From: an uncultured Pseudomonadota bacterium | Lineage (GTDB): Bacteria > Bdellovibrionota_B > Oligoflexia > Oligoflexales > CAIYRB01 | Length of the DNA: 55,481 nt | Direction: 5' to 3' | Assembly (NCBI GenBank): GCA_903915625.1 | Contig: CAIWTN010000111.1 | Span: 1 to 55,481, forward strand | Part shown: positions 49,747 through 55,393 of the stretch, piece after piece | Position numbering within the stretch: the stretch's first letter is position 1 | How the letters are laid out: each line of letters starts with the position of its first letter | Notes under the pieces: model-generated | Database searches by the model: none | What the model saw: only the letters and a program-made list of their open reading frames with translations | What the model was told of the DNA's origin: nothing | Translations under genes and position numbers: made by a program

Positions 49747-50802
49747 TTAGCTAATAAGTACTGATAGCGGTGGGACCCGTTCGCCAGATGCCACCACAGT
49801 GTTTTTAAGAACAGAACCTGCACCAATCACACAGCCAGATCCAATCTGCGTCTTACCAGACAAATGACAACCTGACTCAATAATGGAATCGACACCGATG
49901 ACGACGTCTTCATCGATATATATAGATTCCGCGAGCCGCAGAGTAACACCGCTTAGCATAAGCTCTCGCCGCTTGCGCGCCATTAACCACGACTCAGCAT
50001 CAGCTAGCTGCATCCGATCGTTCACACCACCAAACTCCTGCCAGTCGGCAGCCTCATGAGCACACACGCGAAAGCCGAGTGTCCGCGCATGCTGAACGCA
50101 GTCGGTTAGATAGTACTCATTCTGCGCATTGTTTGGTGTCAGTAATTGCAGAGCTGCAAACAAAACATCGACACGAGCAAATATGATGCCTGTATTGCAC
50201 AAATCAATCGAGCGAGTTGCCGCATCGGCATCTTTCTCTTCAACAATTGCTAATAACTCGCTACCTCGCGTCACCATGCGTCCATAACCACGAGGCTTCG
50301 GCACTCGCATACCCAACACGGCCAGATCGGCAGAGTGTTCTCGCGCATCTCGAACGAATTCAAGTAACGACTCCGGCTGTACTGCCGGCACGTCACCCGC
50401 CATGATTAGAATATAATTGCACGTTATCGGAGAGCCCTGGACTTTGTGGCCAGCCGCATATGGTGGAGGCTTAATACCGGCGAATAAAGCTGCCGCTGCC
50501 GCAACGGCGTCCCCGGTACCCTGACGATTTTTCTGCACTGCAACGCAGAGTTCTTTACGCTGATTCAAAAAAGAAAGTAGGTTTGGTTGATCATCGCTAA
50601 CCACCACACCCACAGATTTCGCCCCGATACGAGCCAGAGTAGTCAGCGTCCAATCAAGCATGGGACGTCCCGCCACGGGATGCAGCACCTTAGGCAGCGA
50701 GCTTTTCATACGCGTGCCTTTACCTGCTGCTAACACTAAGCCAGCAACTCCCAATACGCTCAAGTCATCCACGGTAGGCTTCGTCATTTGGCTCGACGCC
50801 AC
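49747..50802 (-). CDS. glmU: GlmU uridylyltransferase, C-terminally shortened
   Basis: 351 residues against about 455 usual. The N-terminal pyrophosphorylase is intact: LAAGKGTRMKS, LPKVLHPVAGRPM, QNR-type KNRQGTGDAVAAA, MAGDVP and the NTGI motif. Only three or four left-handed beta-helix repeats follow (LAESIYIDEDV, VGVDSIIESGCHLSG, KTQIGSGCVIGAGSVL), so the acetyltransferase domain with its catalytic His and CoA site is missing. It would make UDP-GlcNAc from GlcNAc-1-phosphate but not acetylate GlcN-1-phosphate. No frameshift is evident. Confidence 0.88.
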   Translation of the reverse strand: MASSQMTKPTVDDLSVLGVAGLVLAAGKGTRMKSSLPKVLHPVAGRPMLDWTLTTLARIGAKSVGVVVSDDQPNLLSFLNQRKELCVAVQKNRQGTGDAVAAAAALFAGIKPPPYAAGHKVQGSPITCNYILIMAGDVPAVQPESLLEFVRDAREHSADLAVLGMRVPKPRGYGRMVTRGSELLAIVEEKDADAATRSIDLCNTGIIFARVDVLFAALQLLTPNNAQNEYYLTDCVQHARTLGFRVCAHEAADWQEFGGVNDRMQLADAESWLMARKRRELMLSGVTLRLAESIYIDEDVVIGVDSIIESGCHLSGKTQIGSGCVIGAGSVLKNTVVASGERVPPLSVLIS

Positions 50803-53035: not shown

Positions 53036-54151
53036 TTAAACCAACTGACGCGGAATATCCGAATGCAGCCTGGTGAGCAACTCGTAGTGAATCGTGCGCG
53101 CCCACCCGGCCAAATCCTGTGCCGAGACCTCGTCATTACCATCAGCGCCGATTAACGTCACCTGGTCACCGACCTCGACTGCCGGCAAATGTGTCGTATC
53201 CACCATCATCATGTTCATGCAGATACGGCCGACTATGGGACAGCGAGCGCCCCGAATCAGCACATAACTGGCAGCTTCCCCAGCTATACGCGGATATCCC
53301 TCGTAATAACCCACCGGAAGCACGGCCACGCGCATATCGCGAATAGCGCGAAACGTGCAGCCATAACCGATAAATTGCCCCGCGGCTACAGGCTTGACTG
53401 TGGTCACTTCGGTCCGCCAAGAAAGTACCGGCTTCAGGTCCAGCACCTGATTTTGCAGCTGCAAATAGGACACCCGCGTCAGAGGTGATGGCCAAGACCC
53501 ATAAAGCGAAATGCCTACGCGCACTAGGTCAAAATGACTTGTTGCCATTATCAACGCGGATGCACTCGACGCGGCATGAAGCATAAGTTGAAAGCCAGCA
53601 TCAGCAAAAACCTGAGCGGCCCGATTAAAGATTTCGAGCTGCTTGGTTGCGTAACCGTGATCGGTGACATCCTCGACGTTGGCAAAGTGAGTGCAAAGAC
53701 CAACAATTTTAGCACTATGTGGCCTCAAAAGCTGCGCCACCACTGCGGCCTCGCTCAGGGCAAATCCCTGCCGCGACATACCAGTATCGAATTTAATATG
53801 AATACGCCCTGGAGCGCCGGCCTGAAGCCAAGCAGCTAATACCGCCTGATTACCCAGGACCAAATCTAAGTCGAGAGCACTTGCCGCCGGAATCTCGCGC
53901 GCTACAGCCGGCCCCACCACCAGAATGTGCCCACTGTAGCCAAAACCGCGTAGTTTTGCCCCCTCCGCAACATAGTTTACACAAATCCAAGCCGGCGACT
54001 CGCTGGCTAAGACTTGGTAAACCTCGGCTAGGCCGTGGCCATAAGCATTAGATTTAAGCACAGGTGCTACAAGCTCTTTGCCGGCAAGGCGGCAAAATAG
54101 ATTGTAGTTGTGACGTATTGCGGCGCTACTTAATTCAATCGTGCTAAGCAT
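53036..54151 (-). CDS. alr: Alanine racemase
   Basis: 371 residues, ATG start. PLP lysine in VLKSNAYGHG (Lys33), GTGMSRQGF-type segment (FDTGMSRQGF), GYGCTFRA and MDMR-equivalent CMNMMMVD are present, so both domains are complete. Supplies D-alanine for peptidoglycan. The neighbouring cell-wall gene set (nagZ, glmS, glmU) is scattered in the same window. Confidence 0.96.
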   Translation of the reverse strand: MLSTIELSSAAIRHNYNLFCRLAGKELVAPVLKSNAYGHGLAEVYQVLASESPAWICVNYVAEGAKLRGFGYSGHILVVGPAVAREIPAASALDLDLVLGNQAVLAAWLQAGAPGRIHIKFDTGMSRQGFALSEAAVVAQLLRPHSAKIVGLCTHFANVEDVTDHGYATKQLEIFNRAAQVFADAGFQLMLHAASSASALIMATSHFDLVRVGISLYGSWPSPLTRVSYLQLQNQVLDLKPVLSWRTEVTTVKPVAAGQFIGYGCTFRAIRDMRVAVLPVGYYEGYPRIAGEAASYVLIRGARCPIVGRICMNMMMVDTTHLPAVEVGDQVTLIGADGNDEVSAQDLAGWARTIHYELLTRLHSDIPRQLV

Positions 54152-54208: not shown

Positions 54209-55393
54209 TCAAAGTCCCCTGACTCGCAGCGGATACACCTGATCTGCCCTCACGCCTACCGCTACGAATGGTTGAACGATAGACAAAATATCTGGTGACC
54301 GTGCGCAAGGTTTGCCGCCCAAGACAGTGCTCAGCTTCGCCTTATCTATGGACAGTACGCCAACGGAGAGCAAGCCTTGTGCGTCGTGCGCGTACACAGC
54401 ATAGGGCATGCTACAGCTATCTATATACTCGATCTGTAAGACTGCACGGTCAGCCCGATAAGCCAGGTTTAAGGAGCTAGGCGCGCTTAGCTGGAGAGCT
54501 TCGTTGGCGGCAGGCGTGATCGGTAGCAGAGCTGTTTGACTAGGCAAGTTAAGAGCTGCCTCAGCAGTCCTCACCCAGATGGGCTTAGCTAGTTCAGAAG
54601 GACAATGCACATTGGGAAAGCGCGCCACCAACATGCCGATATGCGCCTCGCCGCTAGCCGAAGAGCCCAAGACGACTCCAAGTGGAGCCTCGTTACATTG
54701 ACGTTGATACTCCAAGCTAAGCCCCGACGCATTCGCTGACAGCGAGCGCACCGGCGCCAATTGCAGGGAAAACACGCGTGCCAGCGACTTAGACCGATCT
54801 GGCAACGGCCGAACGCTAAAGTCTCCGCTGTGACCGAGAACCTTCAAATGATGAGGCTTCGGCGCCGCTAAACAAGAGATAGTCCGCTCGCGACTGGCGA
54901 CGTCCTCAATCATGGCAATTTCCAATTGGTGACGACCTACGCGGTGGACTAGCGTACCCAGATCACGACCACAACGACGGGTATAGACCGCAAACAAGTC
55001 ACGCTTTGAGCCACTTGCGGCTAAACGCACTTCCTCGACAGGAACTGCCGTCACTCGCATGCCTGCGTTCACAGCCATGGGAGCGATCTTCTTGAAAGAC
55101 CTAGTAGCTAAGAACTCAACGCCGACTTCTACAGTCTCAGGCATCGAAGTGCACAAGACGGAGGCCTCGGTGACTGCCGCCGCAACCTCCATGACTCCAG
55201 ACTTTTTATCTTCGAGGGCCACTAGGCCGTAATACTTGCTACCGCAGGGCAATGTAACCTGCAGCCGCAGGATCTCGCCTGCGTACCCTTGCGGAATCGC
55301 CGGACGGAGCTGCAACTTCGGCATTGCCGCGTTAGCACTGCTCGCCCAAAATCCCAACACCACCACAAATCCAGTCAATTTAGGCAGTCGCAT
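54209..55393 (-). CDS. Exported protein of four ~92-residue repeats, each with a cysteine pair
   Basis: 394 residues from the ATG at 55393 (AGGTGA upstream; signal peptide GFVVVLGFWASSANA). The frame is open to 55468. Cysteines occur only as 50/81, 141/174, 233/264 and 327/363: four pairs with internal spacings of 31-36 and repeat-to-repeat spacings of 91-94. Each unit begins with a hydrophobic strand before Cys (LQVTLPC, AVYTRRC, LEYQRQC, IEYIDSC) and is followed by a strand after the second. Unrecognised, probably disulfide-bonded beta-sandwich modules in the periplasm. Confidence 0.7.
   Translation of the reverse strand: MRLPKLTGFVVVLGFWASSANAAMPKLQLRPAIPQGYAGEILRLQVTLPCGSKYYGLVALEDKKSGVMEVAAAVTEASVLCTSMPETVEVGVEFLATRSFKKIAPMAVNAGMRVTAVPVEEVRLAASGSKRDLFAVYTRRCGRDLGTLVHRVGRHQLEIAMIEDVASRERTISCLAAPKPHHLKVLGHSGDFSVRPLPDRSKSLARVFSLQLAPVRSLSANASGLSLEYQRQCNEAPLGVVLGSSASGEAHIGMLVARFPNVHCPSELAKPIWVRTAEAALNLPSQTALLPITPAANEALQLSAPSSLNLAYRADRAVLQIEYIDSCSMPYAVYAHDAQGLLSVGVLSIDKAKLSTVLGGKPCARSPDILSIVQPFVAVGVRADQVYPLRVRGL

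Follow-up and report, generated by a model that had tools for sequence, protein, structure and literature searches.

The DNA analysed here (hereafter the window) is 55,481 nucleotides long and is a complete contig from a 4.4 Mb assembly of an uncultured bacterium of the order Oligoflexales. Close to the contig end, on the minus strand, lies a gene (54209..55393) whose frame runs from an ATG at 55393 to a stop at 54209 and encodes 394 amino acids followed by the stop codon. The assignment is based on homologues and on dN/dS, which is 0.17 against the closest relative and is the same in each of the two close pairs tested (silent sites are saturated in a third), so that, judged by substitution pattern, this is a conserved gene. 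The N-terminus, MRLPKLTGFVVVLGFWASSANA, looks by eye like a Sec-type signal peptide (putative; residues 1-22, 55328..55393, minus strand) with expected cleavage after ANA, and the structure model places a helix of low confidence at residues 4-17. No anchor, lipobox or beta-barrel was noted by eye in the protein. The next gene downstream, 57 bp away and on the same strand, is alr (53036..54151, minus strand), assigned as alanine racemase by Pfam.

The mature protein owes its most obvious feature to its cysteines, of which there are exactly eight, at residues 50/81, 141/174, 233/264 and 327/363, with successive gaps of 31, 60, 33, 59, 31, 63 and 36 residues. The original observation of four regular pairs with a period of ~92 residues stands, both on these positions and on random draws: when eight cysteines were placed at random within residues 23-394, only 21 of 200000 draws were equally periodic. 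Four units, each with one pair, can thus be delimited on the minus strand: unit 1 (55061..55315, residues 27-111, Cys50-Cys81), unit 2 (54773..55060, residues 112-207, Cys141-Cys174), unit 3 (54497..54772, residues 208-299, Cys233-Cys264), which has a YxRxCNEAPxG motif around its first cysteine, and unit 4 (54212..54496, residues 300-394, Cys327-Cys363), which ends at the C-terminus with YPLRVRGL. Pairwise BLOSUM alignment of the window protein's own units gives weak scores, mostly near background, but unit profiles built from an alignment of 27 homologues (A3) match in all six unit pairs (E 2e-9 to 4.9e-5, probability 68-96%), and none of 40 column shuffles in which the cysteines were held fixed reached the observed unit-unit scores. 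In a set of 16 members, taken from outside the taxonomic family of the window, five unit pairs reach E 1.6e-6 or better and the pair V3-V4 (units 3 and 4) is weak (0.0021), with reversed-profile controls at 0.036-0.35. The pattern common to the units runs from LxLxP through a strand that ends with YxxxC, a G five to six positions further along and a V/A/G-rich strand to the second C, and an IxPL-like motif closes it. As far as profiles can tell, the four units are therefore homologous, with a likeness that goes beyond cysteine spacing. This confirms the proposed tandem architecture and, because the profiles match in both homologue sets, a lack of self-similarity beyond the cysteines, which had been named as the outcome that would speak against it, is not what was found.

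A profile search detected the family, always as a single copy per genome, in 28 of the 43 genomes of the order, and a further copy in G016, identified from where the gene lies and how its cysteines are arranged, brings the count to 29/43. One of the copies, in G015, is cut by a contig end; a second search of 16 order genomes (the unmatched ones and G015) returned only this copy (E 1.8e-10) and a row at chance level (E 0.41). With no copy found in 14/43 genomes, the gene is dispensable at the level of the order. The same profile search found the family in none of the remaining 15 genomes from the class and phylum, the restriction to the order resting on 58 genomes of the phylum. Nor was the unit found elsewhere in related genomes: the proposed search with a single-repeat profile gave 82 matches in 26 of 56 related genomes, all of them inside the four-unit gene (positions compared by eye). 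On a YidC tree with 36 rows, presence of the gene needs three changes, a number as low as this in none of 500 label shuffles, which fits an early gain followed by a few losses. No relative was found in plasmids, phages or viral contigs (the viral scan used a seven-member alignment, A2), and the sole match in a scan of genome contigs for close relatives was the record of the nearest relative. In the available portions of the literature on Oligoflexales genomes, on disulfides in Oligoflexia and on metagenome-assembled Bdellovibrionota from Lac Pavin, the four-unit family is not described.

How the four units evolved bears directly on what such a protein might be. In 35 of 36 units (from nine of the 27 proteins), the best match in another protein is the unit at its own position, and the number of units is constant at four across the order, which points to a fixed four-domain body over an expandable array. 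The suggestion of a surface or periplasmic binding array is thus retained in part: an exported protein of four tandem units is supported, but the word array is less so. By mean conservation, unit 1 ranks first (0.429), followed by unit 3 (0.401), unit 2 (0.364) and unit 4 (0.352), and among the cysteine-bounded cores it is unit 3 that is most conserved (0.473), its CNEAPxG loop being, we infer, the likeliest contact site. The strongest of the alternatives, that the protein is exposed on the surface or released and acts as an adhesin or recognition array serving contact with other cells, draws on its predicted export, on its tandem disulfide domains and on its pace of evolution, which is faster than that of its neighbours (mean pairwise difference 0.77 vs 0.47 for Alr). 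It nevertheless appears unlikely, considering that the units keep both their number and their identity, that nothing resembling an anchor was noted and that the gene is single-copy and vertically inherited. A periplasmic rather than a surface location would fit better.

The neighbourhood of the gene is well conserved. In 19 neighbourhoods, the four-unit gene is divergent from an rpmH-rnpA-yidD-yidC-jag-mnmE cluster and upstream of alr, with the qualification that three of these (the window, G002 and G004) stop before rnpA and yidC; in G002, the divergent strand does carry a motif resembling rpmH. Wherever the neighbourhood holds alr, it is on the same strand as the four-unit gene (18/18), and it lies within 73 bp or overlaps in 16/18 (the distance is 2165 bp in G006 and 703 bp in G041); in G008, alr is not near. 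Judging from strand and spacing, the two genes are probably on the same transcript. This closeness need not mean shared function, since gene order at the locus is conserved across many unrelated genes (glmS, glmU, uvrD and a HEAT gene), and the neighbourhood is modest evidence for a functional link. This weighs on a second alternative, in which alr is what links an envelope protein to peptidoglycan synthesis, the protein binding, for example, wall precursors that contain D-alanine. The probable operon and the presence of glmU and glmS nearby speak for it; it is nonetheless harder to credit than an adhesin, not only in view of the unrelated genes but also because alr persists in several genomes that lack the four-unit gene, often directly beside rnpA or yidD (G009, G023, G025, G040, G037, G028, G007 and G034). 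In the other order of the class, the three proteins scanned from the place of the four-unit gene, divergent from rnpA-yidC, are exported proteins with a FecR domain (PF04773, by Pfam; L082:3482-4594, L083:3279-4334 and L086:3425-4798), a domain that Pfam does not find in the four-unit protein of the window. Several other features of these loci deserve mention. The GlmU-like protein of the window (49747-50802, minus strand) has only 351 amino acids and appears to be shortened in its acetyltransferase half, since Pfam recognises the nucleotidyl transferase part and a single hexapeptide stretch. In the nearest relative, a protein of 291 residues is encoded between the four-unit gene and rpmH (L048:10798-11670); its start resembles a lipobox by eye, and Pfam finds no family in it. 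Short repeated peptides in open reading frames at L068:8466-8999 and L072:6625-6849 probably reflect repeat DNA rather than genes.

Sequence databases offer no name for this protein. The window protein has no Pfam family at E up to 10, no match in NCBIfam or PHROGs and none by sequence in the PDB up to E 10, in agreement with the original remark that the architecture matches no familiar family. When the 27 members were searched, Pfam returned nine families and NCBIfam five, each on one member only (best E 0.0054 and 0.019, respectively), and PHROGs returned none. The prediction of structure, which had been proposed as a check, yielded confident models: the full-length protein (mean pLDDT 84.7, pTM 0.77) is almost entirely strand, and unit 3 modelled alone with short flanks (residues 203-299) reaches pLDDT 87.7 and pTM 0.77. 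What did not come with them is a significant fold match. Foldseek against the PDB found nothing at E 0.001 or better (best 0.27 for the full protein, 0.79 for unit 3), the best full-length E against viral models was 0.016 and the top VIA-align Z-scores were 2.5 (full-length) and 3.5 (unit 3), all of which are at noise level. Such rows do not assign the fold and do not mark it as new either, and a fold missing from them is not thereby excluded. The viral row is baculovirus LEF-3, which is beta-rich like the four-unit model (BFVD E 0.016; VIA Z 2.1, rmsd 3.5, 47 aligned) and which is an OB-fold protein that binds single-strand DNA; for an OB-fold of this type there are these noise-level Foldseek and VIA rows alone, the PDB sequence search gives no match to LEF-3, and LEF-3 is a viral nuclear protein that is not known to carry the cysteine repeat. 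Likewise, the top row for unit 3, a DUF1344 protein from Bacteroides vulgatus (PDB 3k6o; Z 3.5, rmsd 3.7, 80 aligned), shares 5% identity with it at a Z well within the range of unrelated folds, and the Pfam search of the window protein (E up to 10) gives no DUF1344 family.

Several of the weak full-length rows (semaphorin, DDB1, GH62 and WD40) are propeller folds, which raises a third alternative, namely a four-bladed beta-propeller with one blade per unit forming a ligand-binding disc. We consider this improbable, and slightly more so than a link to peptidoglycan synthesis, given that (i) these rows do not rise above noise (best E 0.27, Z at most 2.5), (ii) unit 3 stays confident when modelled alone, (iii) its own weak rows are mostly folds other than propellers and (iv) ~92 residues is long for one blade.

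The cysteines themselves can be followed through the family. When the part after residue 32 was counted in 28 homologues (leaving out the truncated copy of G015), 22 had eight cysteines, six had six and none had an odd number. The six-cysteine proteins have each lost the complete pair of a single unit, namely that of unit 2 in G010 and G016 and that of unit 4 in the four genomes of genus g15. The other member of the family of G016 (L019) keeps all eight, so the two losses in unit 2 look independent. An enzyme capable of forming disulfides, VKOR, is present in 27/28 genomes tested; DsbB was rejected as the oxidant, being found in only one of the 28. Loss solely as whole pairs, together with the distribution of VKOR, suggests four within-unit disulfides (50-81, 141-174, 233-264 and 327-363, one per unit). 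Not every disulfide would be needed, as the cysteines of unit 4 were lost in one clade and those of unit 2 in two genomes. The least probable of the alternatives, a redox or metal-handling protein in which conserved cysteine pairs of an exported protein serve as reactive or metal-holding thiols, is weakened by partner cysteines ~30 residues apart, by the lack of any CxxC or Pfam match to the thioredoxin/Dsb oxidoreductases and by the loss of pairs unit by unit, as expected for structural disulfides, unlike a site shared between units.

Taken as a whole, these results make it about an even bet that the gene encodes a fixed four-domain, disulfide-locked periplasmic protein with a binding or scaffolding role, made together with alanine racemase. 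The protein would be exported to the envelope and its signal peptide removed, upon which the mature part would fold into four similar beta-rich domains of ~92 residues each, every one of them locked by a single disulfide, formed probably via the VKOR pathway of the organism. The domains would have been duplicated before the order diversified and would have specialised afterwards. Binding or scaffolding would take place in the periplasm, with the main contact site around unit 3, and production would be coupled to that of alanine racemase. The location, the disulfides, the co-transcription and the scaffold role are all things that we infer. Disulfide-stabilised tandem beta-domain proteins are a feature of the bacterial envelope. 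They are exported and composed of beta-rich tandem units with one disulfide each, just as proposed for the four-unit protein, although no family of this kind matched the window protein in Pfam, NCBIfam or PHROGs. A bolder version, which we put forward tentatively and hold with distinctly less confidence, is that the 92-residue unit represents a disulfide-locked beta domain not described before and without a counterpart among solved structures. It would have become fixed as an envelope protein of four domains close to the origin of the order, with each unit specialising separately from then on.

Although the four-unit family by itself opens no long-standing question, it adds a well-bounded protein family, worthy of a name, to a bacterial lineage that has received little study. 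The model of the protein is confident yet has no clear relative by fold, and the natural paired losses of cysteines show which disulfides can be dispensed with.
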